Made by a program: the position numbers and the translations under genes. From Branchiostoma lanceolatum (lineage: Eukaryota > Chordata > Leptocardii > Amphioxiformes > Branchiostomatidae): DNA of 64,000 nt. Positions 16,785 to 56,117 of the stretch are shown piece after piece (positions within the stretch are counted from its first letter, which is position 1; each line of letters begins with the position of its first letter). The notes under the pieces are model-generated. The model saw only the letters and a program-made list of their open reading frames with translations. It was not told the origin of the DNA and ran no database searches. Where the stretch lies: assembly GCF_035083965.1 (NCBI RefSeq), contig NC_089729.1, positions 565,501-629,500 on the forward strand. Direction: 5' to 3'.

Positions 16785-16874
<90 letters not shown>

Positions 16875-28158: not shown

Positions 28159-30780
28159 TCACATCGACAGTTTCTCCACGAACACCTCCAGCACGTCCTC
28201 GTCGACGACCCCCATGAACGTGTCGACGACCTTCCCGTCCCTCATACCTACAACCGTCGGTACTGCGCGCACCTGGGAGGAACAGAAACCTCTGTATGAA
28301 TAGTATAATATTCCACTTTTTTTAAGTCTCTGATTGTCATACCTTGGCAGAGATACTGTAAATCCAATAAATTTCACATCCGGTAATCTTAGCAGTTGGG
28401 GGGAAATTTAATTTTAATGGTGGGAACAAAATGTTAGTAATCAAACATTTGCGATGATGAAATTTTAGTGGTTGACTAGTGACCGTTAAATCAGCTAAAA
28501 TTAAGTTACCATTATGAAATCAAGAATTACTTATAGAATACAACACGGGGTATTCCGTATCACCCAAGGTACCAGCCCTACCGTGGGTAGGATCGCCCGA
28601 TGGCCGTAGGGCATTCCGGCCTGCAGGAGGGCGGGGACCTAGTTTTCACGGCTTTCACAGGTTTAACGGGTGTTCCGCACTGGGTGATAGCTTGGGTTAT
28701 CACACAGGGTTCTACTTTTATCACACAGGCTTTTAATGAATATTTCAAACCCGCTTTGCGTGCCCCGGTTGCGCTTCTGTTGAGAATTCGAATACCGGAT
28801 TCTTGGAGATTACTTACATCATACTGCATGGCGATCTCCTTACATCTGCTTGGAGATTACTTACATTATACTGCATGGCAGTCTCCTTACATCTGCTTGG
28901 AGATTACTTACATTATACTGCATGGCAGCCTCCTTACATCTGCTTGGAGAGTACTTACATCGTACTGCATGGCAGTCTCCTTACATCTGCTTGGAGATTA
29001 CTTACATCATACTGCATGGTGATCTCCTTACATCTGCTTGGAGATTACTAACATCATACTGCATGGCAGGGTCCTTACATCTGCTTGGAGATTACTTACA
29101 TCATACTGCATGGCAGTCTCCTTACATCTGCTTGGAGATTACTTACATTATACTGCATGGCAGCCTCCTTACATCTGCTTGGAGAGTACTTACATCGTAC
29201 TGCATGGCAGTCTCCTTACATCTGCTTGGAGATTACTTACATCATACTGCATGGCGATCTCCTTACATCTGCTTGGAGATTACTTACATCATACTGCATG
29301 GCAGTCTCCTTACATCTGCTTGGAGATTACTTACATCATACTGCATGGCGATCTCCTTACATCTGCTTGGAGATTACTTACATCATACTGCATGGCAGGG
29401 TCCTTACATCTGCTTGGAGAGTACTTACATCATACTGCATGGCAGTCTCCTTACATCTGCTTGGAGATTACTTACATCATACTGCATGGCGACCTCCTGC
29501 AGGTTGTCAATGTCGACCTTGGCCAGCTCCACGTCCCCATTCTTCGCTGAGATGACCTTGTCCAACCGAGGGGCCAGCACCTTGCACGGACCGCACCATC
29601 TGTGCACACAAGGGGGGAAGATATGGTACTTTTCGTGAAAAGCAAAAAACTCTTTTGAGAAGCAGACAATAAAGTAAACACTAATAATATCTTGCAATTG
29701 TATGTAATTGTAACAGTGGGGATCAATCTCCACTAACTGACCAATCTAACTGGTCCGGACCTAGTGGTCAGCAGTTGAATTCCCAAGCCGTGCGGATCGG
29801 GATTGGCGCGGGTTCTAATCCCGGGTTTTTACATAATGATGCAGTATTTGCTTCTCTGTAGAACGAACATTTTCAGCATGCCAACAAGTTGCTGGTTCCA
29901 AACTGGCCACAGTATTCATTGTGATGCAATTAAATGAATTCAATTAAAGAGTACATTAAGGATCCAGAGGTATCAGGAGAGATACACTTAATAGACTGAT
30001 ACAAACTATGTTCCCCTACTTCATGGAAAATTTATATCATTAATGCCTATAGCTTAGATCAAGAAAAATCTGCTCTTACATTTCCATGATGACAAAGATA
30101 AAATCAAAGATACAACAAGAAGCTGAATCAACCTATACTAGATGTATAGTACTGACACACAATAGCTTGTATTTGTAAACTTTTTTATGTGACCTATATC
30201 TAGCTCAGTGGGGCAAAATGTACAGTAAAGTAAAGGTCTTTGTTATATACTAGTAAAGACAATTCAAACTCTACAACTGGATAAAAATTCGGAGATTTAT
30301 TTCCGGATGTTTCGAGTGACAACCATCACTCTTCTTCAGCGTCACTAAAATGAACTAGCAGAACTAACCAGTGGTCCGCAACATCAGCTTGGCTGCCTGG
30401 CGCTCCACTATGTATTGTCTTGTTGCAATTTTCAATAAAATATATAAATAAACTAGCCAGTACTTATATACAATAACTAGAACAAACGGTTTTTACATGG
30501 CAAAACTTCACAAACGTATAAAGGTCTTTGTTCAATCATGAACTCACGTTGCGTGGAAGTCGACGACCACCGGTTTTGTGTTCTTTAAGACTCGGTCCTT
30601 GAAGTCTTCCTCGTCCTGAACATTGAAGGAGAACCCCAGGACCCTGCTGGTGGAGAATGGAGCCGCTCGTCTGGCGCTGAGAAGGAGTGGACTGGCTAAC
30701 GGTGATCTGTGGGCCGTGGTGTGAAGCCGTGCAGCTGACGCTGAGGCTTGGAGGAGCCTTGTTAACGGTCTCAGAGCCAT
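28159..30780 (-). CDS. TXN2: thioredoxin, mitochondrial
   Basis: A mitochondrial disulfide reductase that keeps matrix proteins and peroxiredoxin 3 reduced, recharged by TXNRD2. It is 156 aa (human TXN2 is 166). Coding exons: 30780-30548, 29599-29476, 28272-28159; stop TGA 28159-28161. Residues 1-50 are Arg/Ser/Ala-rich without acids, ending near RRAAPFSTSRV, a matrix-targeting peptide. The active site WCGPCK is at 79-84, with its preceding Thr split by intron 1. VDIDN follows, and the cis-Pro loop AVPTV (Pro124) begins exon 3. A 5' UTR intron is likely (donor 32140, acceptor at 30797). Intron 2 starts with a 15-copy, 47-bp array duplicating the end of exon 2 and its donor. All catalytic residues are intact. 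Confidence 0.95.
28803..29507 (-). repeat. 47-bp minisatellite made of the TXN2 exon 2 end plus 5' splice site
   Basis: Fifteen copies with a strict 47-bp period. Read in the gene's direction, each unit contains GGAG(GTC/ATC/ACT)GCCATGCAGTATGAT, the last coding bases of exon 2, then GTAAGTAATCTCC and AAGCAGATGTAAGG. The first unit is the true exon-intron junction (donor GT at 29475-29474). The other 14 are copies inside intron 2, each with GTAAGT and a second GTAAGG. Since 47 is not a multiple of 3, use of a distal donor usually shifts frame, and the first copy meets a stop within 17 codons. Confidence 0.97.
30300..30350 (-). repeat. dispersed hairpin motif (CTGAAGAAG-stem-CGAAAC)
   Basis: On the minus strand CTGAAGAAGAGTGATGG is followed by TTGTCACTCGAAACATC. 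GAGTGA/TCACTC form a perfect 6-bp stem. It lies in TXN2 intron 1. Confidence 0.5.
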
Positions 30781-31131
30781 GGCCGTAGGTCTGTGACCTG
30801 CAACATAGGAGAAAATCAACGGTTTTAGTCTTAGCTTACTGGAATTAGATAATCTCCAAGTCCAAGCAGATGATGGGAAGAAAATCACAACATTTTCTTC
30901 ACAAAACATTTTCTGATCTGCTGTTTTAACATGAGAACCTTGCATGTTTTAGAGTACGTTGATTCTCGATTCTTGCTGACAGTGCTCTTCAAGGGGACAG
31001 TACTGTCAGAAAAAAATGGTAGATCAGAAAACGTTTACTTACGATTTTCTAACCAACATCTGCTTGGAAATTTTAAAAACACAGTTCCCATGACCCTTGC
31101 ATGACCCGAGTGACCCGCTGTAGGGATGAAA

Positions 31132-31263
31132 TAATCTCCAAGCAGATCCGCGCACCGGGCGCGAAAATCGTATATGCTAGCCAGAGAAGGTCCAGTCAGC
31201 AAGAGAGACCCTCTCTGGCTAGCATATACGATTTTCACGCCCGGTGTGGATCTGTTTGGAGAT
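31132..31263. mobile_element. palindromic element with ATCTCCAAGCAGATC ends
   Basis: ATCTCCAAGCAGATCC, GAAAATCGTATATGCTAGCC and AGAGAAGGTC on the left are mirrored by GGCTAGCATATACGATTTTC and GGATCTGTTTGGAGAT on the right. Arms are about 60 bp with a loop of about 12 bases. The terminal TCTCCAAGCAGAT is also found at the TXN2 exon 2 donor, near 30847-30872 and, inverted, near 31055-31070. Confidence 0.8.
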
Positions 31264-31445
31264 GAGGGATGAAACCCAGTGAGGTGACACGAAATCTAAC
31301 ACGACGACTATAACAAGATTTAGATATTTGTGCATATCAGACAGCATCTACTGCGCTGTGTCAGTACGACTGGCCCGTGAATTCAGGTCATAGACTGGCC
31401 CGGGACAGCAAACAAGCATTTATTTATTGACAGCATTTATTGACT

Positions 31446-31553
31446 TGTCTGTATAACGCAAACTCCAGCTGTCCGGGGGTTTCTCTCTTGGGTTGCGAGG
31501 TGGTTACAGGGCCGCGAGCGGTCACAAGAGGCTTGATTGAATTCAGGCTAAAC
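31446..31553 (+). repeat. dispersed repeat, copy 1 (partner 60102-60214)
   Basis: CTGTATAACGCAAACTCCAG and CTGTCCGGGGGTTTC, then GGTTACAGGG and GCTTGATTGAATTCAGGCTA, are shared in order with 60102-60214. Family not recognised. Confidence 0.7.
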
Positions 31554-32140
31554 AACATGGTGTTACGTCACTCACTGCAATATTCTAATCAAGTAATCCC
31601 TAGCGCAGGTGGAGAAATAGAACAAAACACATTAGAAAACAGGTGGTATAATTAATAAGGACAGGTGAGGTTATTCACGTGACCTCATCCCTACAAAATG
31701 GAAAGTTACGAGGGAAAACATGCAGTACACTGAAGTAGGAGACAGATGAGAAAGGATGGTAAAGCAGACGCAAGGGAGGCTAGGATAAAGGGGGGGGGGG
31801 GATAAGTATAGTGAAAAAAAAAGGGGGAATAGGGGGTTTCACTCTCTCTGAAGCATAGCTCCGTCTGTGGAGGACGTTTCACTAACTCCCAATATCAATC
31901 CCCATACCTTACATGTGAGATATCTTCTACACCGGAGCGGAGGGATACTTGGTTTGGATAGGATACACTTCAAGCCCCTCATCGTGACTGAACTGTGCAG
32001 CATAACTAGCGTAAAAAACATGCATATGTGACACTCTATCGACCTATTAATGACAACGTAACGATTGAATAGCACAACTAAATTCTATGATCTGTTCTTG
32101 CCTGAAAACTAGATAGAAAACGAGGCAACTCGTACTCACT

Positions 32141-32344
32141 GAAAATCTTGTCACCTTCACGCTTTTCCCAGACCAGCTGTGCGCGGTGACGTCACTGAAA
32201 GCGCGGGGATCCCTCGCGGTGCATGGCGGGAAATCTGTGCATACGTCACGCCCAGCAACCCCCTAGCGACGGGGACGCCGTCAGACGAGACGGAATTCGG
32301 AAACAACGCGCTCGTGTGCGGACCTCATTCAGACTTTATCACAG
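32141..32344. promoter_or_regulatory. bidirectional promoter of TXN2 and the 33.4-kb gene
   Basis: GC-rich, CpG-bearing segment. A perfect CRE palindrome TGACGTCA is at 32187-32194 and a half site CGTCA at 32244-32248. GGCGGGAAAT (about 32226) resembles E2F sites and overlaps a YY1-like CATGGCGG. A GTGAGT donor facing left (exon end 32140) and a CAG-GTATTT donor facing right (exon end 32344) suggest each gene has a 5' UTR exon here. Confidence 0.6.
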
Positions 32345-33305
32345 GTATTTCTGGTGATTTCTGAGAATTCTTACGCTTTCTAAGATGTTTTAGCGGTGTT
32401 TGCGACCCTATAATGCTGCAGGTTTTTGTTTCAAAGCGAATTTAAGCGAGATTTCACGGGTTCCGAAACCACCTGTTGCTCAGAGCCCACGGAATAGCAG
32501 ACGACGCAAAGTTGCAAATAAGGTGCTGCTAAAACATATTCTACTTTCATCTAAACAATATCATAGAAAATCATTGATTCAAATGATTTTGAATTGTACC
32601 GAACAGTCAAAACTGTAAGCGTATTTTGACATAGTGAAATATCTTTGAGGTAACTTGAGAATCATGCTTAACTCCTTCAAACTTTGAAGGTCTTTGAACC
32701 GATAACTTCATGCCCTAGTTACAAACAAAAGAAGTCAACAAAGGTGGCTGCCCAACAACAGTCATGCTGTAGCCACACAGTTCATCATTCTGTTTGATCA
32801 CCCAATACAGCAAACAAGATTATGTCAATGGTTAACCCTAGTCTATGATTTGTAAGTCTGAATACCATAAACTTAACAGCGTGTTGCCTAGAAACGGTCG
32901 AACAGCAGACGACGAAAGGATACCGAAAAAAGTCTGTCAAGACTCTTGTAGTATTTCCGTCACTTTGAAAGGGCGGTCGTTTAAAAACAACATTTGGCTG
33001 ATATATTTCCTCAGTACTGTACGGAGGGATACAGTCTTGTGTACCCAAATTCTGAATTAGAGTTGTTCGAGTACAATAACATTACAGCTGCCACATACCA
33101 CTTTGCTATGTTAACAATAACAACAAATGTAACACAGCACTAAGTCAGTAGACTGTGGTATATTGTTCGCCCAGCGGGCTAAAAACAACGACCTGTTTGC
33201 TTTTCTTGCTGTTTCAACAGGTGTTAGTGGATTCTTGTCCAGTGACAAAGTCCACTACTGCTGAGTCGTGTTACACTTTAAAACAGCTGTTTGTTTTGTT
33301 TCTAG

Positions 33306-33416
33306 AACCCATGACGAACGTGCCGTGAAGAGAGCTCACACATGGCGACCAAACTGGCGGGAAAGTTGCCATAAATCTAAGGTAGCGTGAACGATTTCAA
33401 TCGACTAGAGGTTGAG
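33306..33416 (+). promoter_or_regulatory. 5' UTR with two short upstream ORFs
   Basis: After a TTTGTTTCTAG acceptor (33305), the leader of the downstream gene carries ATG 33311 to TGA 33328 (5 codons) and ATG 33342 to TAA 33374 (10 codons) before the main ATG at 33417. Both precede the main start, so leaky scanning or reinitiation would be needed. Confidence 0.5.
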
Positions 33417-36400
33417 ATGGCGGTTCCTTCCATGGCACACTTCAAGGCCAAGCGGACCCAGGCCCTCCCCGATCGGAGTCTTTTCGGCACGACCTTAGAT
33501 TACGACACGAACTTGAAGAAAGCTCCGACCCCGGAGCTAGACCAGATCGGAGCCGATCTCTTACAACCCAACACCAAGTGGAAGGAACGCATGCAGGTGA
33601 CGGTACCCTTCGCCACGACTGTCAACGACCAGAAAAACTTGGCTACTCTGAGTTTGAAGCAGAACAACGTCCGGCAGCTAGCGGGTGACATCCGGGGACT
33701 GCGCGAACAGGCGCTGTACTTCCGCCCTGAACAAGTACTGGAACTACAAAACATCAGGAAAAACTTGACCAAGGTTTGCAGCGTTCTTATTTGCACTTCT
33801 CGTGCGTCCAAATGTCGTTCTATCCACTTACTTTGACACGTTTAGAATCTACATACGATCAAAATGTAAAGAAACATTAAGCTTGGATTACGATAACATT
33901 GCAGGCGACATTGAATGAAAGAAACGGATCATAAATTACCTGTCATTTGAAAGTTGCAAAAACGGTAATCCTGGAAAACAACTTTTGAAGCAGAACATCT
34001 CAATGGAAAAAAACGCGTGTCCGTATAAGTTCGCCTTTAATTTGTGTTGACAGAAATTTAATTCAACGGTAGATTTGTTCAATATTTGAGCTTTCGTGCA
34101 CAAAAAACATATTTTTTCTTACATGATATATGGCAAGATAAAACGAAAATGTCCTTTATTGAAAAAAATTGAAGATATGTTGTTTTTTTTCTTTAACGCC
34201 AAGGCGGCCGTGCGCGAAGAGCGAGAGAAGGAAGAACAGGCCTCCACCACATCCACCGGCCGGTACTACGCCGACATCAAACCCAGCTACCGCGACTTGG
34301 AACACAGCGACGCCGTCAACAACGTCGGCATAGGAAACACTGGGCAGTACGACTGGCACAGACAGGGACCCAAACGGGCCAAAGTGGCCCCGTACAAAGT
34401 GATCGGCGATGTCTTCCACACGGGAAACTTTACCACAAGCAGACATGTGGACAGAGGGTATGATATGCCTTCACAACTTAAAGCTTCTCAAATCAGGACT
34501 TCAGACTTGTCCATGTTGGAAAAGCCGAGGAAACAGAAGGTTGTAGAATCCAAGGTTCCCGCTAACATACGTCACACATACGGCGCCAAGATCACAAAGG
34601 AGGCCATGCAAGACGAAGAACTGAAATCAAAGGTATGGATAACTCTTTATAAAATAAACTTTATTGCAAAACCACGTCAGGCTAAAAGCAAAACAGTAAG
34701 CTATATACATTAATGTGTTAATTTTACCAATAGAACGTGTTCTATAGCTTTTTAGCGACAGCATAACTTGTCCTCGCATTTTTCTTTAGTGAAAAACTTA
34801 CCAAAATGACTTTCGCTAAGAATCCTCATAGCAATTTGCATATTTTTCGACTAATGAGAGCATGACTTAGAGACAATTTTTTGTAATGATGTTCTACAAC
34901 TCAGCCTGGACTTGTTGTCATGCCACCAGCAATTATCAATATTGTTTATTGATTATGAATCAATTATCTAATCAATACAGGTGCTGAGGGAGAGAAGAAA
35001 GAAGACTCCCAGACATACCGCCCTCCCACCCCTGAGGGATGACGTCACCGACCCTGTGTACAAGGACCTCAGTAATGTCATAAGGCTGGACGTCTTGCCG
35101 GGTAAGGGACATGTACACTGTATTCTGTCATCATCTTCTTTCATATACGGTAAATATTACCTTCGCGGGAAGGTTATGCAGAGGGTAGCGTTTGTGTGTA
35201 TGTGTGTGTGTAATTCTGAATGGAGTTTAAACTGTAAATGCCAACACAAAAATTGGACTTACCCAAATTTTCGACTGATCAGCTCCAGCCTTTGTCAAGG
35301 AGTGTGTAATTGACCAGCATAACTCAAGAAGGCTTGGATGGATTGTCTTGATATTTGGAAGGTGGGTAGGTCTTGGTGAGACCTAGAAGTGATTAGATTT
35401 TGGGTCGGCTAGCGGCTTCTTACGGTACTGCAGCGAAACTTCCTGTTTTGATATCTCGTGTTCTGGACATGCTATGGAACTGATTTTTGAGTGGTAGATA
35501 GATCTTTGGACAGAGGGGAAGTGGTATGGGGCCCCCTAGCAGCTTTTTTTTGAACTGCAGGAGCAGGTTTTGCTATCATAAAACCACTGCAAACATTTGT
35601 AATTGCAGTATACTGTTGTGTACTTGAAAGGCTGTTTCTCCCTCCTCCCAGGCGCGCCGTACCACACCAAGAGCGAGGTCGCCTCTCACTTCACCGCCGA
35701 CGTTCACAAGAACGCGCAGCGGGACGAGGACTACCTGAAGTATGGGCGCAAAACTGACTACTTAGGTGAGACGGCTCCGACTAAACATGCACAGAAAGAA
35801 CTAGTTACACGCACATACAATACATTAAAGCAAATTACGGCTTATATGACATTATATAATTGCCTAAACAGGACCCATTAGCTGACGTTACCATGAATCA
35901 TGGATATTGACGAGAGCAAGTGAGACATGTGTGCCTGAGAGTGTCTTTATAACACAGGTCACTTTATACTTGGGAAGGCCCTGAAATTGTAAAGCTTTCA
36001 ATATTCTTTCAAATGTCTTCAAAACTAAAAAGTCATAAGAATGTCTTCTACAACTAATCAATTAAGTTGACATTAGAACCTTAACTGTACATCAATACAA
36101 TTTGAAAAATCAGGCCTGCCACGTCATAGGTGACCAGTGTTAACAAAACATCTAACCAAGGATTTAACCCTGTTGCAGCAATAGTGTCCAGACTAACTTA
36201 ACCCCCACACACAAACAGTCACCACCACTTATGCTACGGTCCCAATTGCACTGGTGCCCGTTGGGGGTGTAGTCCCGGCCGGGCCCCGAAGCCACAATTT
36301 GTCCCGGTGGACTCCCAGTGTTCGCATGATTAGCTCACAGCGTCTATCCTTTACTGGGTCCCACATTGATTTTCAGTACAGGTTGAAATTATTGGGGGTC

Positions 36401-37920
36401 CCGGCCGGGCCCCAAAATAGCCCAGCTAGAGGTCACCCCGTAGAGGTCATGCCCGAAAATGAAAGAAAATAGCCGGTAAACTAGCCGGCCGGGCCCCTTT
36501 TTCCAATAGTGACCATAGCATAACTTAACCCCCACACAAACACACCCTACTAACCAGCGGCACTGATTCTCACCCCGCCTCTTCTTCTCCTGACAGGGAA
36601 GTGGTGCCAGGACAATGTGTACAGGGAGAACGTTATGAAGGCCTTTGACAAATGGATTCAGGAAAAAGCCGCCAAGAAACCGTAGAGATGGGAGGGACAG
36701 TAACACTTAAAGGTGCTGAGTGACGGAAGTAATGACTAAGAATTTAAAGAAAGACTGTCCAAATTGTCACTTGAAAGTTCATCTGTGTTGGTAGAAGTCG
36801 TTCTGAATCAAACTTAAACTGCAAATGGCCAAGTTGAACACAGTTATTGACAAAGACTGGAGCCGATCAGTCAGAAATTTGTGAGTCCCATTTTTGTGTT
36901 GGCAATTGTCAGTTCAACTTTGATTCAGACTGTCCCAATTTTATTGTAGATAGCTGTACAAGACATGGAGACTCCTAGGAGGATGTTTCACTGGCTTGTT
37001 TTGCTTGTAGGTGGCTGTAGTTTTATATATGCCTAGATACCGAGACCCCCTTCATAGTACGCTTTGCAAATCTAGATTCGCCTACATGTAGGTATGGGAT
37101 TGATCTGACTTTAAAAAAATAACTTCGGATCCGAATTCGACCATGCATACCAGGCTTCATGAATCGGGATGAATCCTGTGCCTGAGTGAACCCAGACTCG
37201 TGAAGCGTCGTATGAATGGGGTCTAACTGCAGTGAGAGCTAGGATCTAGGTTCTTCGATGCTTTATTTGCTATTGGGCCACACAAGACTGATTTCATAGA
37301 TGACATTCTCTTGAGAACCCAGATGTGACGGAGAGTGGAAAACACAAATTCAGCTTAATTCCAACTGGATATTTGACAACAAATACACTTATCTTTGAGA
37401 CAATTTCTTAATTCTGACATGTATTTTTTCATCTTCTATTGATTTTACTAGAAAAAGAGAGAGAGCAGCTTATAGACTGACACTGCATGACAGTAGCATT
37501 TTAATATAGACAGATTAAAAAATAGATAAGATCATTGCCATCTGTAAAATCAAGATTGTGTGGCCTGATACTAGTAAAAGTGGAAAGTCCTGCGGTTCAA
37601 AGATCGGACATAAAACGGCTATCTGACTTGTGTTTGCCCCAGGCCGGTGGTCAGAGTCTAACGTGTACCACCAGACCATGAAGAAGGTTTGGGACAGACA
37701 TCTGGCCGAGCAGCCCAAGTACCAGGCCAACCGGGAAATCGTGCCAAGGGAAAAACCCAAGCCCAAACCTCCGCCCAAGCCCAAACCCAAACCCAAGCCG
37801 AAAGCTCAAGACAACGGGAAGAAAGAAGAACCACCCCCACCCGCCGAGGCGCCTCCCCCACCCCCTCCTCAAGAGGAGGAAAACTTCTGGGACTTCTATG
37901 ACCAACCGTTAGATCTATAA
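33417..37920 (+). CDS. unrecognised multi-exon gene, long isoform with proline/lysine tail
   Basis: I do not recognise this protein. Exons 33417-33773, 34204-34632, 34981-35101, 35652-35765 and 37643-37920 are all GT-AG and phase-consistent, giving 432 aa. It starts MAVPSMAHFKAK, is hydrophilic and has no signal peptide, membrane span or catalytic motif that I can see. Features are a charged run EEREKEEQ early in exon 2, many short Tyr/Asp motifs (GQYDWHRQGP, RYYADIKPSY) and, in the last exon, a KPKP-rich stretch, a PPPP-rich stretch and the acidic end NFWDFYDQPLDL. Such low-complexity, Tyr/Pro/Lys-rich soluble proteins are common among axonemal and sperm proteins, but that is only a guess. 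It is divergent from TXN2 and followed by a 3' UTR of about 1.4 kb. Confidence 0.8.
35165..35560 (+). repeat. dispersed repeat (partner 48640-48890)
   Basis: CATAACTCAAGAAGGCTTGG, GGATTG and GGAAGGTGGGTAGGTCTTGG, then GATTTTGGG, GGTACTGCAGCGAAACTTCC and GGACATGCTATGG, recur in order at 48640-48890 with heavy divergence. This is an old repeat of unknown family. Confidence 0.55.
36232..36521. mobile_element. MITE with TATGCTAYGGTC ends
   Basis: It begins TATGCTACGGTCCCAATTG and ends CCAATAGTGACCATAGCATA, the inverse. The core holds several GGCCGGGCCCC blocks. About 290 bp. Relatives: 41900-42195 and the half copy 44985-45110. It lies 75 bp upstream of the short-isoform exon. Confidence 0.7.
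36597..36685 (+). CDS. alternative last exon of the 33.4-kb gene (short isoform)
   Basis: Acceptor TGACAG at 36591-36596; 89 nt, same entry phase as the exon at 37643, ending at TAG 36683-36685. Spliced from exon 4 (end 35765) it gives a 369-aa protein ending in QEKAAKKP. Its peptide KWCQDNVYRENVMKAFDKW aligns with RWSESNVYHQTMKKVWDRH of the downstream exon (shared W, NVY, MK, D), so the two are ancient duplicates. Because it carries a stop, the two last exons are mutually exclusive. The only poly(A)-like hexamer before the next exon is ATTAAA near 37511. Confidence 0.7.
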
Positions 37921-39281: not shown

Positions 39282-39287
39282 AATAAA
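39282..39287 (+). terminator. polyadenylation signal of the 33.4-kb gene
   Basis: AATAAA at 39282-39287, the first canonical hexamer I see after the long-isoform stop at 37920. Its use is inferred. Confidence 0.5.
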
Positions 39288-40517: not shown

Positions 40518-40735
40518 AGTCTGTTTTACGTTTTATAGAATAGGGATGGGCAATATGGGTGGTCTATTCTATGACACAAAATGGTGTAACACAATAACGA
40601 ATGAGCTAATCAAGCACCTGTTCCTTAGTAGATGCCAAAAATTGTCCCACTGTTCCGGGTGTGGAGCAAACCTTTTCTGTGGCCTCAGTGCAACTGGCAA
40701 TATTTTGAATAGGCCTTCATCACTGCTGGCATGCA
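40518..40735 (+). repeat. dispersed repeat, copy 1 (partner 45519-45695)
   Basis: Shares TTTTACGTTTT, GGTCTATTCTRTG, GGTGTAACACAATR, GAGCTAATCAAGCAC, CCGG/GGAGCAAAC and AATAGGCCTTCAT in order with 45519-45695. The two copies flank the GPCR gene in the same orientation. Confidence 0.65.
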
Positions 40736-41136: not shown

Positions 41137-41164
41137 TGTTACGTGTAGAAAATGCCATGTAGAA

Positions 41165-43453: not shown

Positions 43454-43459
43454 TTTATT
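43454..43459 (-). terminator. polyadenylation signal of the GPCR gene
   Basis: TTTATT on the plus strand (AATAAA on the minus), about 232 bases after the GPCR stop. Inferred. Confidence 0.4.
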
Positions 43460-44971: not shown

Positions 44972-44984
44972 GACTGGTGACTGA

Positions 44985-45110
44985 TGCTTCGGTCCCAATT
45001 GCGCCGATGCCTGTCGTGATTGTAGTCCTGGCAGAGACCCGAAGCCTGGTGGACTGCCGGGAACTGAGGCGTACCTCCCAGTGTTTGCACGGTTAGCTCA
45101 CGGCGTCTTT
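44985..45110. mobile_element. MITE fragment related to 36232-36521
   Basis: TTCGGTCCCAATTGCGCC, GTGGACTGCCGGG, CTCCCAGTGTTTGC and GGTTAGCTCACGGCGTC match the left half of 36232-36521 (TGGACTCCCAGTGTTCGC, GATTAGCTCACAGCGTC). The right half is missing. Confidence 0.6.
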
Positions 45111-46611
45111 TTCCTCCTCTACTCCTTTTCTTTTTCTGTTCTGTTCTTCCTTCTCCTTTTCAGTCACTGTGGCCGAGTGGGTGTCTGCAGTGTTGTTGGT
45201 TGCCAAAACACTGTAAACGGCTGAGACTAAGCTACTGGAAAGGGTCGCAAAAGAGTAAGACTAAGTGACCAAGTCAGGTGATCTTCTTTTTCTCCTCCTG
45301 TGGTCTTCCTTCCCCTCCTCTTAAGGGTACTCCTTTCCCTTCTTTATCAGGGTGTGCGGTCAACAAGCAGCGGACGACAGCACCAGTGGCCGAAAGACAG
45401 CAAGAGTCTGAATGCAGCTCGTCGAGCTGGGATAAGCTACAAACTGATCCGAGCTGTCTTACAAAATTAGCCGTTCAACCAACCAGAGAGTGTCTTACTC
45501 AAGTCTTTGGATTTTACTGTTTTACGTTTTGACGGAAGAGGAAGGGGCTACATGATTGGTCTATTCTGTGCAACACAAAAAGGTGTAACACAATGAGCTA
45601 ATCAAGCACTTAAGCTTGCTTCTTAAGATTGTCCCATGGTTCCGGAGCAAACATTTTCTGTGGCAAAATTGAATAGGCCTTCATTAGTGTTGGGATGGAT
45701 AAAAGAGTGCGACGACCCCATACCTTCGCCAACTGATGTTAGCTTTTTCGAGTGGCATATCATGTTTCCCAAAATCTTATCATGTCGGGGTCTCAAGAAG
45801 ACCTACGTGTATACCCACATATCAAGACAATCCATCCAGGCATTCTTGAGTTATCGTGTACACAGAAGGACACACGCACACACACACAGACACAAATGCT
45901 GTGCAAAACATATGAGCCTTATAATTATCGATGAAGTTGATTATATAGTACACAGGGCAACTTTTTATGCTGTTTGTCACGTTCCTAAGGATGTTATCGT
46001 CCAACTGGTGACATCGAACCCAATCATCTCTTTGATTCATTCTAATCTCTCCTTAGCCAGTTGCAGTCTCAACTCCTGCTACACTAGCATGTTAGTCTAC
46101 ATGCATACTCGTTAGATTTTATAAAAAATATATGCTGGACTTCAGGCAGGTCCGTACATGCAAGTACATAGAAGCTGGTTCGTACATGAATTTAGAAAAG
46201 GATTATTGTCAAAAAGACAGCTGAGGTAATTTAGCCAAAAGTCGGGTGCATTTGTATCCCGAAAAATATAATCTATCAGAAAATAATACCTGCTTCTGGA
46301 AGAGAATGTTCCTGTGAGAAATGCACCAACAAAAACCCATTCCTCGTAGTTGGTTGCTCTCCTTTGGTTGTTGCCATGGACATCAACGTGTCAAGCCTAT
46401 GCAATGTTGAATGAGCTTTGACCAATCTCATTTGTGGTAAAATCAAGGACTCATTCAACGTTGATTGGCCCTTTGGATTCATTCTCAATGTTGGTAATAG
46501 TCAAGACGACATGTTGAACAGGCAAGAATAATTTTTTTGTAGAAAAAAATTGCAAGGGGGAGAATTGCGAGGGAGTGGAGCAGCCCAAACGGGGGGATAG
46601 TGTGAAAGGGG
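45111..46611. other. intergenic, no gene seen
   Basis: Pyrimidine-rich stretch at 45108-45165 and dispersed repeat copy 2 at 45519-45695. The rest is unassigned AT-rich DNA. An inverted pair around 46395-46475 (CAATGTTGAATGAGCTTTGA versus ATTCAACGTTGATTGG) is weak. Confidence 0.5.
45519..45695 (+). repeat. dispersed repeat, copy 2 (partner 40518-40735)
   Basis: Same block order as 40518-40735 with about 40 bases deleted in the middle. Confidence 0.65.
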
Positions 46612-47605
46612 GTTATTGCAGATATATAATAGTTGGTGACACTCAGTTCAGTACCAAGGAGAGATCCTGTCACAGATATGTAATAGTGGGTGATACTCAG
46701 TTCAGTTCCAAGGAGAGGTCCTGTCACAGATATGTAATAGTTGGTGATACTCAGTTCAGTACCAAGGAGAGGTCCTTCACAACAGATATGTAATAGTTGG
46801 CGATAATCAGTTCAGTACCAAGGAGAGGTCCTGTCACAGATATGTAATAGTTGGTGATACTCAGTTCAGTACCAAGGAGAGGTCCTGTCACAGACATCTA
46901 ATAGTTGGTGATACTCAGTTCAGTACCAAGGAGAGGTCCTGTCACAGACATGTAATAGTTGGTGATACTCAGTTCAGTGCAGAGGAGAGGTCCTGTCACA
47001 GATATATCATAGTTGGTGATACTCAGTTCAGTACCAAGGAGAGGTCCTGTCACAGATATATAAGAGTTGGTGATAATCAGTTCAGTACCAAGGAGAGGTC
47101 CTGTCACAGACATGTAATAGTTGGTGATACTCAGTTCAGTAACAAGGAGAGGTCCTGTCACAGATATATATTAGTTGGTGATACTCAGTTCAGTACCAAG
47201 GAGAGGTCCTGTCACAAATATATAATAGTTGGTGATACTCAGTTCAGTACCAAGGAGAGGTCCTGTCACAGATATGCAATAGTTGGTGATACTCAGTTCA
47301 GTACGAAGGAAAGGTCCTGTCACAGATATATAATAGTTGGTGACACTCAGTTCAGTACCAAGGAGAGGTCCTGTCACAGATATGTAATAGTGGGTGATAC
47401 TCAGTTCAGTACCAAGGAGAGGTCCTGTCACAGATATGTAATAGTGGATGATACTCAGTTCAGTACCAAGGAGAGGTCTTGTCACAGATATGTAATAGTG
47501 GATGATACTCAGTTCAGTACCAAGGAGAGGTCCTGTCACAGATATGTAATAGTTGGTGATACTCAGTTCAGTACCAAGGAGAGGTCCTGTCACAGATATG
47601 TAATG
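46612..47605. repeat. 54-bp minisatellite, about 18 copies
   Basis: Unit built from GATATGTAATAGTTGGTGAT, ACTCAGTTCAGTACCAAGGA and GAGGTCCTGTCACA. Period 54 (18 codons), a few units 1-2 bases longer. Frames stay open on both strands only because 54 is a multiple of 3. The array stops 5 bases before the acceptor (GTGCAG, 47605-47610) of the exon-like block at 47611. Confidence 0.95.
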
Positions 47606-47610
47606 TGCAG

Positions 47611-48059
47611 GGCATCATTAACAGCCTGAGTGAGATGGAGAGGAGCCAGTTGGAACAGAAGGGCCTGTACAAGGGCGGGCCATGGAGCGCAAAACCATGC
47701 TGGGGAAACTGAAGAATGAACACGGAGATCGACAGGGGTCAAGGGTTGATCATCGCCCTGGACTTCGACCAGCTACCTGAGAGGGACGTGGGTAAGTTTT
47801 TGTTTGTTCAGACCCTTGTAGTGCCCAGTGGCACATAGGACAGCAATGTTCCTTGCTGTTTCATGATTCAGTAGGAGGGTATGTGGTAAGCGTTGTTTAA
47901 AGCTACATGTATCTAGTGAGGATACCCCTACCTGGCAATGAGTTCTAGTCTGATAGTTCTAGGGGAAAAAAACAAATGATTGTTGAAGTGAAATCTTATT
48001 TATTTTTCTCAGATCTTGATCCAGACACATTTTCAATCTTCTTTGACTGCTGGAAAGAG
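47611..48059 (+). pseudogene. degenerate two-exon gene fragment, product unrecognised
   Basis: Exon-like block 47611-47791 has an AG acceptor and a GTAAGT donor. Block 48013-48059 follows TTTTTCTCAG and ends at GTAACA, and the phases match. The reading GIINSLSEMERSQLEQKGLY, then a garbled stretch with an in-frame TGA, then GLIIALDFDQLPERDVDLDP and DTFSIFFDCWKE looks like real protein. The middle (about 47674-47730) reads better in another frame, implying at least two compensating indels. No further exon was found on either side. A partial, decayed copy of an unidentified gene is the best reading; a sequencing error in a live gene is possible. Confidence 0.45.
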
Positions 48060-48469
48060 GTAACAGCTTAAGATTGCATAACGTTTACATTTTTTTAAAG
48101 AATTGGGAGCTTTCAGAGTTATCATTGTCAACAATCTCTTCAAGGATTTACACAAAACAAAATCACATTCAAGAATTTCACACAGCTCCAAACTCAGATA
48201 TTGAACTACACAGTTACACATGACAATATATATACATGGCAATCACTCGTAATCTTTATTCAGATCATACAGAAGTACAGATACAGAATGATACAGATAT
48301 TCGAGTATGATGACCGTGTCAGTTCCTACAACTGAGTGAGGAGGGTAGCCTTCGCGTGGATTTGTTTAAGGTGGATGACAGGTTGCGAATCTGAGACCCA
48401 CACACTTTGGGCATCCACCATCTCCAGCAGCACCAATTGGAGGGAGACGTGCTGGTTCTGGTTGGGATG

Positions 48470-48562
48470 CTTGCAGCGATGTCTCTGGGCACACCCCGGG
48501 ATTCGATCCTGGGTCCCATTGTTTGACATCCACGCGCTCTACCACTTGCGCCACACGACGCC
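48470..48562 (-). mobile_element. tRNA-like SINE head, reverse orientation
   Basis: On the minus strand GTGGCGCAAGTGGTAGAGCG (A box) and AGGATCGAATCCCGGG (B box) lie 34 bases apart. The ends do not form a convincing acceptor stem, so a SINE head is preferred over a functional tRNA. Confidence 0.5.
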
Positions 48563-48639
48563 ACAACACGTGACAATAATACCTCTTCAAATATCCACAT
48601 CCTCTAAAGTTGAAGCTATATTTACATGTACCTCCATGA

Positions 48640-48890
48640 AAAACGGAGATATAGTTTTTTGGTCTGTCTGGGTGTGTGTGTTTGTTTCCGGGTATTTGTG
48701 GTCAGCATAACTTTAAACCCTCTGGATGGATTGTAATGATACTTGGTATGTGGGTAGATGTTGGCAAGATGAGGGTCACATTTGATTTTGGGCCCCCTGG
48801 TATGTGACCTTGGTACTGCAGCAAAACCTCCGTTTTTTGTATCTTTTATCATGGACGTGCTATAGTCTTGTTCTTATCAGTTTCTAGGGC
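48640..48890 (+). repeat. dispersed repeat (partner 35165-35560)
   Basis: CAGCATAACTTTAAACCC, TCTGGATGGATTGTAATGAT, GGTATGTGGGTAGATGTTGG, GATTTTGGGCCCCCTGG, GGTACTGCAGCAAAACCTCC and GGACGTGCTATAG follow the order seen at 35165-35560. It begins just downstream of PIGX. Confidence 0.55.
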
Positions 48891-48934
48891 ACTATCTGTG
48901 TTAGTATTAGACCCTGTATGATGATGATGAGAAT

Positions 48935-51900
48935 TCACTCTTCCTTGTTCTTGGCCCCTTCCCTCCTAGAAACCCTACTGGCTCTTCTAGCAGCAGCTAG
49001 GATTAACCAAGACCCCAGAGCTGCTGCTACTGTGGTGCCTGTGATGACTAATCCTGCATGGGTCTGCTGACCTAGGGGGACTTGGAACAACAGTGGCTCG
49101 GCCTGGAAGAAAACAAGGGGGGAAAAAGTCACCCATTGGCAATAATTTTCTTTCATCTGAAAAAAATAATTACTTACAATGCATCTGTAATTATACTCAA
49201 TTAGTATCAGCCTCAATCTTAGTGTCAACAATTTCCTCCTCTAACCCGGAAAGTGAGAGGAGAATGCCCAGCTCTAGTCGGCACTTACACTACTTGTGCT
49301 TTATCATGTTCTCTAGATGTCTCTATAGCTCAACTGGTAGCAGCCTCACAGTTGAGCTCCTGGTTCCAACTAGTTGGAACCCCCGGTTCAATACTGGGAA
49401 GGACATCTACATATAGGTTGGGGCTGCACTTTTCTTTAGGAAAGGACATAAAATGGTGGTGTTTGATAGGGGAAGGGCTAGCAACCCCTCCCTGTAAAAA
49501 TACAACTTACTATACTGAAACAGCAAGGAAACTTGCTGCCCTATGTGGCACAAGGCACTACAACGACCAAACAAACATACCTGAAAAACGGGTCACAGTC
49601 TGAACCTGTAATATATTTGTTTGCCTAAACATCAAAACTGAAAACTACAATGGTCGGTGTTGAAACTACCTTTCCATTGAGCAGCTGCCACAAACAGACC
49701 TCCTGGGACTCTGCATAACACGGAGCAGGGAACAGCCTGCTCTCCTCACAGGGCGTGGTCACTGGTCGGTCTCCTAGGCAACAGATGAACAATAAGTTTG
49801 AAATATGAACTACATGATGAAGGGTTTCTTTCCTAGTGTAGAATGTGTAACCTCGATTCTCAGCATTGCAACAGGTAACCTTACACCCCACATTAACAAT
49901 CTTTTATTTGCAAATTCATGCCCCTAGGCTAATTGCAAGGGTACAGACACTTAAGGGCAAAGGTAACAATGGTAACGAGTGTCTATTCTATGCATCTAGC
50001 TTATGTTTCTACATACAACATTACTGGAGGGTTTGACTTCTTCTTCTTTTTAATAAAACAGCAACTTTAATCATTATAATAAAACAGCAACTTTAATCAT
50101 TATATTTAACCTTCTCCCTGCTGCCTAGCTCTGTAACCAATAGGGAATTGGGTGCAGCAGCTCATTCAGAGTGCTAAAGGTTAAAGAGATCGACTAAATG
50201 CAGCATCAGTAACCTCTGAGGTACGACCCTCGATTCTTCCATAGATACATAGAATTCGCTCCCTCGCCTGCGTGTGCTCCCTCTTGTTTAATTTTTCTGA
50301 AAAAAAATCTTATGTTTTTTAACAATTGCAGAATGTGTACTTCTGTAGTCCTGTTATCAAACCATCCTCAAGAGCTTTCAACAGAAATCAGGAGACACTT
50401 GAAAAGATGTACCTTCACAGTGCATTAGAACATCTGGTCCCTCCAGCTTCACAGTAGCAGAGGTGTCCTCCCCTTCACCTGCCCACCTGTGGTACCTCAG
50501 GTGTACAGGTAACGTCACTCTCCAGGTGAAACCCTACAGGTGAGACAGTGTTAATATATCCAGGTGTGGCACACCTGTCGTACATGTACCTCAGGTGTAC
50601 AGGTAACACTACTCTCCAGGTGAAACCCTACAGGTGAGGTATAGTGAAACACCTATGTCCTATTGGAATGATTTTATGAAATCTACTTCAAAGGCAGCAC
50701 AATTTTCCTAATGTCTGTTACCCTCACTTAACACGATTTCAATTATCTTTTTGAAAGAAGTAATCAAATCTATATTGATACCTTAGGGCCTTGCTGTAGG
50801 GGTGAGTACAGTAGGAGTTTGTGGTGAGGAGATTGGTCAGCCGCCTGCTCTACATCAATGTCTCTTAGGGCCAATTTTCCTAATGTATGTTTGATACCTG
50901 TACTTAACATGATTTCAATCTGCTTTTTGAAAGAAGCAATCAAATCTATATTGGTACCTTAGGGCCCTGCTGTAGGGGTGAGTACAACAGGAGTTTGTGG
51001 TGAGGTAATGTTACCTTGGGGCCCTGCTGTAGGGGTGAGTACAACAGGAGTTTGTGGTGAGGTAATGTTACCTTGGGGCCCTGCTGTAGGGGTGAGTACA
51101 ACAGGAGTTTGTGGTGAGGTAATGTTACCTTGGGGCCCTGCTGTAGGGGTGAGTACAACAGGAGTTTGTGGTGAGGTAATGTTACCTTGGGGCCCTGCTG
51201 TAGGGGTGAGTACAACAGGAGTTTGTGGTGAGGTAATGTTACCTTGGGGCCCTGCTGTAGGGGTGAGTACAACAGGAGTTTGTGGTGAGGTAATGTTACC
51301 TTGGGGCCCTGCTGTAGGGGTGAGTACAACAGGAGTTTGTGGTGAGGTAATGTTACCTTGGGGCCCTGCTGTAGGGGTGAGTACAACAGGAGTTTGTGGT
51401 GAGGTAATGTTACCTTGGGGCCCTGCTGGAGGGGTGAGTTCAGTAGGAGTTTGTGGTGAGGTAATGTTACCTTGGGGCCCTGCTGTAGAGGTGAGTACAG
51501 TAGGAGTTTGTGGTGAGGTAATGTTACCTTGGGGCCCTGCTGTAGAGGTGAGTACAGTAGGAGTTTGTGGTGAGGTAATGTTACCTTGGGGCCCTGCTGT
51601 AGAGGTGAGTACAACAGGAGTTTGTGGTGAGGTAATGTTACCTTGGGGCCCTGCTGTAGGGGTGAGTACAGTAGGAGTTTGTGGTGAGGTAATGTTACCT
51701 TGGGGCCCTGCTGTAGGGGTGAGTACAGTAGGAGTTTGTGGTGAGGTAATGTTACCTTGGGGCCCTGCTGTAGGGGTGAGTACAGTAGGAGTTTGTGGTG
51801 AGGTAATGTTACCTTGGGGCCCTGCTGTAGGGGTGAGTACAGTAGGAGTTTGTGGTGAGGTAATGTTACCTTGGGGCCCTGCTGTAGGGGTGAGTACAGT

Positions 51901-54900
51901 AGGAGTTTGTGGTGAGGTGATGTTACCTTGGGGCCCTGCTGTAGGGGTGAGTACAACAGGAGTTTGTGGTGAGGTGATGTTACCTTGGGGCCCTGCTGTA
52001 GGGGTGAGTACAACAGGAGTTTGTGGTGAGGAGATTGGTGAGCTGCCTGCTCCACATCAATGTCTCTTAGGGCCAACACCTGGACAGGAACAAAAGCTAC
52101 TCATTAATCATAGAAACATTGTATGTATCTCCACTGAGCAGGCAAATCATATACGCTGTCCTTCATATAGATGTACCTTTAACATGTGCTAGTTAGAATC
52201 TGGTGTAATGCAAAGCTGACCTTTTCCAAGTCTATAAAACACTCAGCAGGGGAAAACATTTCAAATAGAGATGTGAACAAGCTAGAGACACTCCAGAAGC
52301 AGCAAAGGAATATTGAGACACTTTGTTAAAAATATTCATCACTTCTTGATACTTGGTGTGCAACGCCTCACACCGATCGGTCTCTTTACAAGTCATACAG
52401 CCTAACTTCTTTCCAACTCTTTTCTAACATGGTGAGCTACATTCCGTATACCATGAGAAACTTACCAGACACATAGTGTTAACTACATGTACCTGGGGCC
52501 CTCCGAAGTCGGTCCTGAAGGTCACCTGGTGAAGGTCGACGTACATCCCCGCGGGAACCGTCTCCACCAGGAGCAGCCGGCACGGTACGGGCAGGGTCGC
52601 CATGGCAACCGGCAGTGTCACCTCGGTTACCACATCCCTGCAAGTCAGACGCATCTTCAACAAAAGTTTCAACACCAAATCATATCTTAACAATTACAAC
52701 TTCTAAGTTTTTTTTTTTACTGACAATGCAGCACATGTACATTGTACACGAAATGAACAAATTATACCCCCAAATGGCTTAGGTTATAACTTATTTTATA
52801 CTGGAAAGAAGGAACATAATACAACCATCACACAATAAGCCAGTTCACGATATAAACTGAGTATGCATACCAAGGTGCAAGGTGCAGATGATACATGTAT
52901 ATAATTATGTTAAAGTTGAGGCCCCTGAGCTATAAACAGAACACGTCTGGATATAGACAAGAACTGTTTACAAGTTATTACTGACTAGTACTAGTACTAG
53001 AACTAGTAAGGGCATTCACCTCTGACATATTTGATACCCACACTGCATGTCGCTGTGCTCGCAACTTGAATCAGATTACTAGTATTAAATCAAAGTCCAG
53101 ATGAAAGAACATTTTACATTAGGTCAGTCCTGACTGCTCGTGAGAGATCTGTATATACCTGTGAAACCCCTGGTTCTGTGCAGTCCTGTTGACCTGTACA
53201 GCAGACAGACTGGGGCAGACATACCTGTGAAACCCCTGGTTCTGTGCAGTCCTGTTGACACGTACAGCAGACAGACTGGGCAGACATACCTGTGAAACCC
53301 CTGGTTCTGTGCAGTCCTGTTGACACGTACAGCAGACAGACTGGGCAGACATACCTGTGAAACCCCTGGTTCTGTGCAGTCCTGTTGACACGTACAGCAG
53401 ACAGACTGGGGCAGACATACCTGTGAAACCCCTGGTTCTGCACTGTCCTGTTGACACGTACAGCAGACAGACTGGGCAGACATACCTGTGAAACCCCTGG
53501 TTCTGTGTTGTCCTGTTGACACGTACAGCAGACAGACTGGGGCAGACATACCTGTGAAACCCCTGGTTCTGTGCAGTCCTGTTGACACGTACAGCAGACA
53601 GACTGGGCAGACATACCTGTGAAACCCCTGGTTGAGAGCTGTCCTGTTGACACGTACAGCAGACAGACTGGGCAGACATACCTGTGAAACCCCTGGTTCT
53701 GTGCTGTCCTGTTGACATGTACAGCAGACAGACTGGGGCAGACATACCTGTGAAACCCCTGGTTCTGTGCAGTCCTGTTGACACGTACAGCAGACAGACT
53801 GGGCAGACATACCTGTGAAACCCCTGGTTGAGAGCTGTCCTGTTGACATGTACAGCAGACAGACTGGGGCAGACATACCTGTGAAACCCCTGGTTCTGTG
53901 CAGTCCTGTTGACATGTACAGCAGACAGACTGGGCAGACATACCTGTGAAACCCCTGGTTGAGAGCTGTCCTGTTGACATGTACAGCAGACAGACTGGGG
54001 CAGACATACCTGTGAAACCCCTGGTTCTGTGCAGTCCTGTTGACATGTACAGCAGACAGACTGGGGCAGACATACCTGTGAAACCCCTGGTTCTGTGCAG
54101 TCCTGTTGACATGTACAGCAGACAGACTGGGCAGACATACCTGTGAAACCCCTGGTTCTGTGTTGTCCTGTTGACACGTACAGCAGACAGACTGGGGCAG
54201 ACATACCTGTGAAACCCCTGGTTCTGTGCAGTCCTGTTGACACGTACAGCAGACAGACTGGGCAGACATACCTGTGAAACCCCTGGTTGAGAGCTGTCCT
54301 GTTGACATGTACAGCAGACAGACTGGGGCAGACATACCTGTGAAACCCCTGGTTCTGTGCAGTCCTGTTGACATGTACAGCAGACAGACTGGGGCAGACA
54401 TACCTGTGAAACCCCTGGTTCTGTGCAGTCCTGTTGACATGTACAGCAGACAGACTGGGGCAGACATACCTGTGAAACCCCTGGTGCTGTGTCGTCCTGT
54501 TGACCTGTACAGCAGACAGACTGGGGCAGACATACCTGTGAAACCCCTGGTGCTGTGCAGTCCTGTTGACATGTACAGCAGACAGACTGGGGCAGACATA
54601 CCTGTGAAACCCCTGGTTCTGTGCTGTCCTGTTGACATGTACAGCAGACAGACTGGGGCAGACATACCTGTGAAACCCCTGGTTCTGTGCAGTCCTGTTG
54701 ACATGTACAGCAGACAGACTGGGGCAGACATACCTGTGAAACCCCTGGTTCTGTGCAGTCCTGTTGACATGTACAGCAGACAGACTGGGCAGACATACCT
54801 GTGAAACCCCTGGTTCTGTGTTGTCCTGTTGACATGTACAGCAGACAGACTGGGGCAGACATACCTGTGAAACCCCTGGTTCTGTGCAGTCCTGTTGACC

Positions 54901-56117
54901 TGTACAGCAGACAGACTGGGCAGACATACCTGTGAAACCCCTGGTTCTGTGTTGTCCTGTTGACATGTACAGCAGACAGACTGGGGCAGACATACCTGTG
55001 AAACCCCTGGTTCTGTGCAGTCCTGTTGACATGTACAGCAGACAGACTGGGGCAGACATACCTGTGAAACCCCTGGTTCTGTGCAGTCCTGTTGACATGT
55101 ACAGCAGACAGACTGGGCAGACATACCTGTGAAACCCCTGGTTCTGTGTTGTCCTGTTGACCTGTACAGCAGACAGACTGGGCAGACATACCTGTGAAAC
55201 CCCTGGTTGAGAGCTGTCCTGTTGACATGTACAGCAGACAGACTGGGGCAGACATACCTGTGAAACCCCTGGTTCTGTGCAGTCCTGTTGACATGTACAG
55301 CAGACAGACTGGGCAGACATACCTGTGAAACCCCTGGTTCTGTGCAGTCCTGTTGACACGTACAGCAGACAGACTGGGGCAGACCGTATGCTGGATTCTG
55401 TTCTCTCTGCCTCCTGTTTTCACTATGAACTCTGGGAACAACAAGACAAGATCTAGAATTTCTGTCAGTTCTTAGTCTGGATGCCAGCCTTTTTATCTTT
55501 AGTATGCTCTCTCAGTCAGCTCCTCTCAGTTGCTTTTTGACAGAGACAGCATACTTTAAGCTAAAAAAGGCTGGCATCCAGACTAGTGAATTCTTACCAA
55601 CACTCCATAGGACCCTCCGGCTGGCACAAACACAGCCAAACCTGTACTTAAATTACCATCTTTTCATCGTAGCCACTTTTATCTAAACACCCAATTGCAA
55701 GTGTACTTTTAGTAGTAGCCACCTGTCTAGTACTGGGATCATCTTTATGCCCCTTGGCTTGGGTGAGTGGTCACCATAGACAGGTTTGACTGACGTTATA
55801 ATCATAATTGATTGATTGATTGATTGATTAAATACTATACCTTACTAGTACTTTACAATTGATCATGACAGGAACAGGAACCTCCAGTACTTGATATATT
55901 AGATCTAGCTCTAGCTCTACTCTACTAGTACTCTACTCTACTCTACTCTAGCTTTGGCCTGACACAAGGAAGCCAAAAATAACAACAAAACCTTCTCACC
56001 TAAGAGAGAAGTCGTCAGCTCAGCCGCATGATCAGTGGCTCCAGGATTCTTCAGACCCGCGGAGTTATGGATCAACAGAAGAGCAGCACACAGGCAGGCT
56101 GATGTTAACCACGTCAT
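48935..56117 (-). CDS. PIGX: GPI mannosyltransferase I subunit PIG-X
   Basis: PIG-X stabilises PIG-M, which adds the first mannose to the GPI anchor precursor in the ER lumen. Exons: 56117-56000, 55431-55323, 52637-52493, 52079-51984, 50533-50413, 49773-49670, 49102-48935; phases agree and give 286 aa (human about 258). A signal peptide (MTWLTSACLCAALLLI) starts it. GFHRDVVTEVTL, CRLLLVETVPAGMYVDLHQV, LPVHLRYHRWAGEGED and QVPLGQQTHAGLV match human PIG-X segments in order. One span (about 248-269) and a basic cytosolic tail follow. An in-frame ATG at 56180-56178 would add 21 residues before the signal peptide; I prefer 56117. Introns 2 and 4 begin with minisatellites copying the preceding exon end and donor. 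Divergent from NOL11. Confidence 0.93.
49312..49470 (+). mobile_element. tRNA-like SINE in a PIGX intron
   Basis: TATAGCTCAACTGGTAGCAG (A box) and CCGGTTCAATACTGG (B box), followed by GGTTGGGGCTGCACTTTTCT. There is a long gap between boxes and no closing stem, so this is a SINE in PIGX intron 6, antisense to the gene (exon 7 acceptor lies at 49103). Confidence 0.5.
50580..50643 (-). pseudogene. partial copy of PIGX exon 5 start with its acceptor
   Basis: It repeats the true exon 5 start (50490-50545), including CTCACCTGTAG, then GGTTTCACCTGGAGAGT and TTACCTGTACACCTGAG. The copy lies upstream in gene direction, so it is a decoy acceptor. A CTGAG-GTACATG donor follows, which could define a 38-nt microexon. 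Confidence 0.8.
50785..50868 (-). pseudogene. near-complete duplicate of PIGX exon 4
   Basis: CTAAGAGACATTGATGTAGA, GCAGGCGGCTGACCAATC, TCCTCACCACAAACTCCT, ACTGTACTCACCCCTACAGC and AAGGCCCTAAG-GTATCA match the true exon 4 (52079-51984) throughout. It has a usable donor, but the original acceptor is not preserved. It lies on the far side of the 57-bp array and is itself part of a duplication of about 175 bp (50700-50870 versus 50872-50965 flank). Confidence 0.8.
50946..52035 (-). repeat. 57-bp minisatellite made of the PIGX exon 4 end plus 5' splice site
   Basis: Nineteen copies. In gene direction each unit reads 48 coding bases (PHHKLLLYSPLQQGPK) and then GTAACATTA, so every unit ends with a GT donor. 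The first unit is the real end of exon 4 (donor at 51983-51982). 57 is a multiple of 3 and the unit has no stop, so exon 4 stays open across the whole array: each extra unit retained would add 19 residues. Copy variants differ at AACAGG/AGTAGG and at one GAGGGG site. The long plus-strand frame over the same bases is an artefact. Confidence 0.97.
53150..55390 (-). repeat. 65/66-bp minisatellite made of the PIGX exon 2 end plus 5' splice site
   Basis: About 34 copies. In gene direction the unit is 60 coding bases, ending VNRTAQNQGFHR (the real end of exon 2 at 55323), then GTATGT of the donor. Units with GGGG are 66 bp and those with GGG are 65 bp. Variants include ACGTGTC/ATGTGTC, TGCACAG/AACACAG and CTCTCAACCAG. 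All three minus-strand frames stay open over about 2 kb, which is a property of the unit and not evidence for three proteins. Each unit ends TTTCACAG-GTATGT, which is both acceptor-like and donor. Confidence 0.97.
55473..55585. mobile_element. palindromic MITE in PIGX intron 1
   Basis: TAGTCTGGATGCCAGCCTTT at the left and AAAGGCTGGCATCCAGACTA at the right are perfect inverses. Inner AGTATGCTCTCTC/GAGACAGCATACT continue the pairing. About 113 bp. It lies 42 bp upstream, in gene direction, of the exon 2 acceptor. Confidence 0.85.
55800..55955. repeat. short microsatellites in PIGX intron 1
   Basis: GATT repeats at about 55807-55830 and TCTAC/TCTAG repeats at about 55905-55952, just downstream of exon 1 in gene direction. 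Confidence 0.8.

Follow-up and report, generated by a model that had tools for sequence, protein, structure and literature searches.

Long tandem arrays over exon–donor borders in the TXN2 and PIGX genes of the amphioxus Branchiostoma lanceolatum as probable mirages

Tandem duplications over exon–intron borders are a known phenomenon in amphioxus genes (Adh3, the globins and PGBD5) and are called mirages. The name was coined for Adh3, according to PMC3087553. In the amphioxus globins, the duplications were found at both the 5' and the 3' borders, and many copies carried splice signals. Reverse transcription PCR suggested that the globin genes were spliced normally, and the length and copy number of the repeats varied between haplotypes (PMC3087553). 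Furthermore, mirages have been proposed as a route to new introns (PMC3087553). In the present study, a window of 64,000 nucleotides from Branchiostoma lanceolatum (contig NC_089729.1, positions 565,501 to 629,500, forward strand) was analyzed, and three long arrays were found at the donors of TXN2 exon 2, PIGX exon 4 and PIGX exon 2, all of them inside 27 kb. We consider them to be mirages with a probability of about 0.8, that is, border-spanning tandem duplications produced by break repair, grown by unequal exchange and tolerated as the exon-proximal donor stays in use.

The present duplications resembled the globin mirages in that the tandem units spanned a border, both kinds of border were affected and the copies contained splice signals. 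The dimensions were different. BflGb6 has 6 and 3 units of 150-160 bp and BflGb9 has one duplicate, compared with units of 47-66 bp in 15-34 copies here, and the close spacing of three large arrays was unlike the globin case (PMC3087553). The mirages of Adh3 (Canestro et al. 2002, as cited in PMC3087553) are likewise minisatellites over exon–intron borders, with units of 10-72 bp. In PGBD5 of the lancelet, repeats 60 and 108 bp long abut a donor, and TnC was said to have such repeats too. Like the present units, the 60-bp repeats of PGBD5 overlap an exon (exon 3), and their copy number differs between two assemblies; unlike the present arrays, they have 2-7 copies and were called imperfect (PMC3902484). 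Introns can also be gained through the tandem duplication of genomic exon segments that contain AGGT. There, too, an exon segment is duplicated together with a splice motif, but the new intron arises inside an exon (PMC3443670), while existing introns were extended here. Among the literature matches listed, none described border repeats of TXN2, PIGX or NOL11, their copy numbers or their density (the gene names were not searched), and no genome-wide survey of border repeats was recognizable among these matches. The available portions of PMC2206037, PMC2632668 and PMC4284660 mentioned tandem repeats or introns and no border repeats, and that of PMC3419175 contained none of the terms looked for. 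The first-pass annotation of this DNA had suggested that the multiplication of donors may be new. This was not the case, as published mirages affect donors as well as acceptors (PMC3087553).

Anatomy of the border duplications

The large arrays were located with Tandem Repeats Finder, and TXN2 and PIGX, both on the minus strand, were identified through Pfam and PDB matches of their spliced translations. The extents of exon and intron inside the units were read by eye. On the minus strand, all three arrays started on the exon side with the 3' end of the exon and its donor and continued into the intron (Table 1). The exon-side unit adjoined an exon supported by homology in 3/3 arrays, and the last exon base before the donor was 29476 in TXN2 exon 2, 51984 in PIGX exon 4 and 55323 in PIGX exon 2. 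Tandem Repeats Finder and homology thus confirmed the three arrays of the first-pass annotation with their periods and copy numbers, and the anatomy of all three agreed with its description of a first unit made of exon end and donor followed by intronic units.

Table 1. Positions of the border duplications, the adjoining exons and the fourth large array in the window.
Feature	Positions	Strand	Details
TXN2 exon 2 donor array	28802..29490	-	period 47 bp, 14.7 copies (~15), 93% matches (Tandem Repeats Finder)
TXN2 exon 2	29476..29599	-	donor GT starts at 29475
PIGX exon 4 donor array	50955..52031	-	period 57 bp, 18.9 copies (~19), 98% matches (Tandem Repeats Finder)
PIGX exon 4	51984..52079	-	donor GT starts at 51983
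PIGX exon 2 donor array	53155..55384	-	65/66 bp x34; Tandem Repeats Finder reported 34.0 copies at period 66 and 17.0 at period 131, with 95% matches in each
PIGX exon 2	55323..55434	-	donor GT starts at 55322; 5' end approximate, beyond the Pfam match
Nested PIGX duplication, offset 172 bp	50700..51005	-	exon 4 3' part, donor and intron start, beyond the array
PIGX exon 5 acceptor-side duplication	50492..50638	-	2 copies, 94% identical, offset 94 bp
NOL11 exon 4 donor duplication	59184..59478	+	donor GT at 59211; copies at 59184-59254 and 59408-59478, offset by 224 bp, with 87% identity
Fourth large array	46619..47604	+	54 bp x18.2 (Tandem Repeats Finder); on no supported border

The unit of the TXN2 array consisted of ~22 nt of exon end, 16 nt of intron start and an insert of 7-9 nt at the join. 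The units of the PIGX exon 4 and exon 2 arrays consisted of ~47 nt of exon end with 10 nt of intron and ~62 nt of exon end with 4 nt of intron, respectively. The exons concerned are conserved. The spliced translation of TXN2 matched Pfam Thioredoxin (1.8e-27) and could be aligned without gaps with human mitochondrial thioredoxin (1uvz) over the exon 2/3 join QYD/V. In addition, the spliced PIGX protein matched PF08320 (2.3e-22), and the best stretch (residues 72-197) took in the joins of exons 2/3 at R76 and of exons 4/5 at K156. In both genes, therefore, the genuine border copy adjoined a conserved exon, with the joins inside the Pfam or PDB matches.

The donor GT was kept in 15/15 copies of the TXN2 array, 19/19 of the PIGX exon 4 array and 34/34 of the PIGX exon 2 array. 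The GT was part of the search patterns, but the copies followed one another at an even spacing of 47, 57 and 65/66 bp, so that no copy was missed for want of a GT. The exon-side donor 9-mer was present in 11/15, 18/19 and 33/34 copies, respectively (the first copy counted), and the remaining 4/15 copies of TXN2 had an altered 9-mer with the GT still in place. The insert at the TXN2 join also created a second donor-like motif, GATGTAAG, and there were 14 such extra donor-like sites in the array. As in other cephalochordate mirages, splice signals were kept in the copies of the large arrays.

Three two-copy cases, namely the 172-bp PIGX duplication, PIGX exon 5 and NOL11 exon 4, also had a unit spanning an exon–intron border. 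The exon-like copy of the 172-bp duplication (50776-50874) was 92% identical to 51978-52076 in a local self-comparison. For PIGX exon 5, the genuine acceptor copy was at 50492-50544 and the upstream copy at 50586-50638. Border duplications were present in 3/6 readable PIGX exons and in three genes of the window (TXN2, PIGX and NOL11). All three two-copy cases, together with the fourth large array of Table 1, were not mentioned in the first-pass annotation. NOL11 was identified through a match of its spliced translation to PF08168 (4.8e-27, residues 1-163); its exon 4 ended at residue 175, 12 residues past the match, and the donor was read from the sequence alone. Separately, an almost perfect inverted repeat around a short spacer was seen by eye in NOL11 intron 2 (57812-58000), perhaps a small mobile element.

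Junction overlap, joins and origin of the arrays

The overlap of duplications with splice junctions was compared with a null model in which the duplicated segments were placed at random, either over the whole window or within gene bodies. The junction set comprised 22 donors and 21 acceptors of six genes (two P450 genes, TXN2, a TEX33-like gene, PIGX and NOL11). Some of the coordinates were approximate: 8/22 donors, those of the P450 genes and the TEX33-like gene, were placed by eye, as were the last two NOL11 donors, and NOL11 exons 6-7 gave no in-frame join. Independent tandem duplications with periods of 40-300 bp were counted as loci. Periods under 40 bp and simple repeats were dropped beforehand, including a 16-bp array at 9666-9944 that also had a row with a period of 93 bp and spanned no junction. 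Five pairs of self-matches separated by more than 300 bp (offsets 426, 453, 784, 857 and 1117) were dropped as well, and so was the 172-bp PIGX duplication, which was not independent. At the threshold of the self-comparison (matches of at least 25 bp, E 1e-3), older duplications escape.

Since the window was chosen for its arrays, the P values make the case look stronger than it is for the genome: a splice junction was spanned by 5/8 independent loci, compared with 0.48 expected over the window (P 2.3e-5) or 0.93 within gene bodies (P 6.2e-4), and among the large arrays donors were spanned by 3/4, compared with 0.06 (window, P 1.4e-5) or 0.13 (gene bodies, P 1.1e-4). An earlier version of the random-placement test agreed. 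If the array at 9666-9944 was counted, 5/9 loci spanned a junction.

The first-pass annotation had derived from the arrays a shared boundary rule specific to donors. The excess overlap with junctions behind it was supported in the window, but the rule itself is largely a tautology: any tandem duplication across a donor leaves the functional border with the copy that adjoins the upstream exon, and the others necessarily become downstream intron. The restriction to donors was not supported, because PIGX exon 5 was duplicated on its acceptor side, the donor:acceptor split of 4:1 in the window was not significantly different from 1:1 (P 0.19), and both kinds occur in amphioxus globins (PMC3087553). 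The clustering was real within the window, but nothing general follows from one window selected for it.

The joins between units were read by eye. The join of the PIGX exon 2 array was blunt (GTAT/GTCTG, compared with GTAT/ATACAG in the intron and ACG/GTCTG in the exon), and that of the 172-bp PIGX copy had a 3-bp TTG microhomology. The TXN2 join contained a locally copied insert, repeating GATGTAAG 21 bp away. For comparison, an 8-mer recurred within 47 bp at 242/56640 positions (0.43%) outside the arrays. The readable joins were thus of different kinds (blunt, short microhomology and nearby-copied insert), which points to separate end-joining events and not to slippage in a repeat that was already there. 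In mouse and human cells, fill-in by CST/Pol alpha together with end joining at breaks with complementary 3' overhangs gives small tandem duplications with low microhomology (PMC8355091).

Units within an array were most alike at a lag of five in TXN2 (1.38 differences, compared with 2.0-3.6 at other lags) and in PIGX exon 2 (2.04, compared with 2.14-3.71), and at a lag of one in PIGX exon 4 (0.94). These peaks fit later growth through the exchange of blocks or of neighbours. The variation between units was clustered, with several multi-base states, in columns 5-9 as well as 20, 21, 26 and 31 of TXN2 and in columns 26-27 and 39-46 of PIGX exon 2. The arrays probably arose in three steps. A break near an exon end would be repaired in such a way that a junction-spanning segment of 40-220 bp is duplicated in tandem. 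In three cases, the array would then have expanded through unequal exchange or conversion until it had 15-34 copies. Finally, the exon-proximal donor, which is probably the donor in use, would keep being used, so that splicing would remove the added copies with the intron, leaving the protein as it was and the array near-neutral.

Several points weigh against this origin. The PIGX exon 4 join has diverged, and its candidate microhomology, ACCAAT, was not readable with certainty. Most copies share an identical donor 9-mer, so donor strength cannot explain the choice of the first copy, and the use of that copy was deduced from the genomic sequence. Moreover, the exon unit was not a visible master template. 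As a master copy for homogenization it was rejected, as its mean distance to the other units was above the average in 2/3 arrays (3.31 vs 2.95 and 2.18 vs 1.75) and below it in 1/3 (2.44 vs 3.01).

The excess at borders might also be a matter of survival. Duplications could arise anywhere, and those touching an exon would stay recognizable for longer because selection holds one copy constant. In the two-copy cases, the copies have diverged to 87-94% identity, so the detection of these cases does hinge on slow decay. However, the units of the three large arrays at borders are much alike (93-98% matches), decay matters less for these arrays, and they account for the excess of large arrays at donors given above. 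This explanation is possible but rather unlikely.

Alternatively, splice junctions, or donors specifically, could be directed targets, with breakage or re-replication linked to transcription or splicing nucleating the duplication at exon ends. The border excess over random placement in the window would be in agreement with this, as would the short reach of the three large units into the intron, which by eye was just ~16, 10 and 4 nt past the junction. However, the two donor duplications outside the large arrays extended ~44 and 82 nt into the intron, an acceptor was hit too, and the evidence comes from the one selected window. Strand folding was also rejected as a driver, as the doubled units of the four large arrays folded like shuffled sequences on both strands (z -1.4 to 0.5). 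Directed targeting is therefore improbable in our view. It is just as doubtful that exon ends in this lineage are directed duplication sites through which genes gain long donor arrays, with the spliceosome reliably taking the first of 15-34 near-identical sites.

It is very improbable that the arrays are functional, with spare donors that tune splicing or with downstream donors of PIGX exon 4 that add in-frame repeats of 19 residues: the PIGX exon 4 array was fully open in the exon frame (384-codon frame, 50946-52100), but a stop-free stretch of 19 codons is expected by chance at ~0.4 (estimate), one open unit opens the whole array, two further frames were likewise open, a unit of 47 or 65/66 bp changes the reading frame, and published mirages were said to leave splicing normal (PMC3087553). 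In PIGX, the donors of the array copies did show better pairing with U1 than those of the distal copies, in which the flanking intron is retained (-8.0 vs -7.2 and -6.5 vs -5.6 kcal/mol in the two arrays); the join itself altered donor positions near +4 or +5. Tolerated mirages remain the preferred reading.

Fourth array and neighbouring features

A few bp past the end of the fourth large array, there were an acceptor-like TGCAG and a frame that resembled an exon and contained two frame breaks (46619-47790 together with the array). As a coding repeat it was rejected, since the frame over the first units (46518-46793) had a best Pfam E of 0.22 and no match near the cut-off. The long open frame is uninformative, because any stop-free unit with a length divisible by three gives one. 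It was not accepted as an acceptor array either: the downstream exon-like sequence had an AG and GTAAGT, but it was broken by the two frame breaks, and no convincing match to it was found (DENND3 TPR with E 0.19 and 12.1 bits against a cut-off of 27; best PDB match E 1.4). The array could be a decayed acceptor-side case. The variation of its units was scattered and consisted mainly of single changes, unlike the block-wise variation of TXN2 and PIGX exon 2. The duplications at 94-322 and 15143-15360 touched no supported border.

Two consecutive cytochrome P450 genes (PF00067) were on the plus strand at 4585-10140 and 16304-24142. The 16-bp array at 9666-9944 lay in a P450 gene, in its final intron, and ended ~17 bp short of the last acceptor, which was placed by eye. 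The TEX33-like gene adjoining TXN2 was on the plus strand at 33408-37920, and its PF15400 match was exactly at the cut-off of 27 bits.

Meaning for splicing and tandem duplication

The non-trivial point is that splicing must pick the first of many identical donors, with nothing in the donor sequences explaining the choice. Even if the arrays are ordinary mirages, the introns amount to natural experiments, with 15 to 34 near-identical donors in series, one of which is needed for the conserved TXN2 and PIGX proteins. Splicing tends to prefer the intron-proximal donor site. As donor strength cannot separate identical copies, the introns would allow exon definition to be tested against both first-come commitment and this intron-proximal preference. 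In addition, SRSF1 and hnRNP A1 shift the choice of donor (PMC5585400). The joins, moreover, record how small tandem duplications begin in the animal germ line.

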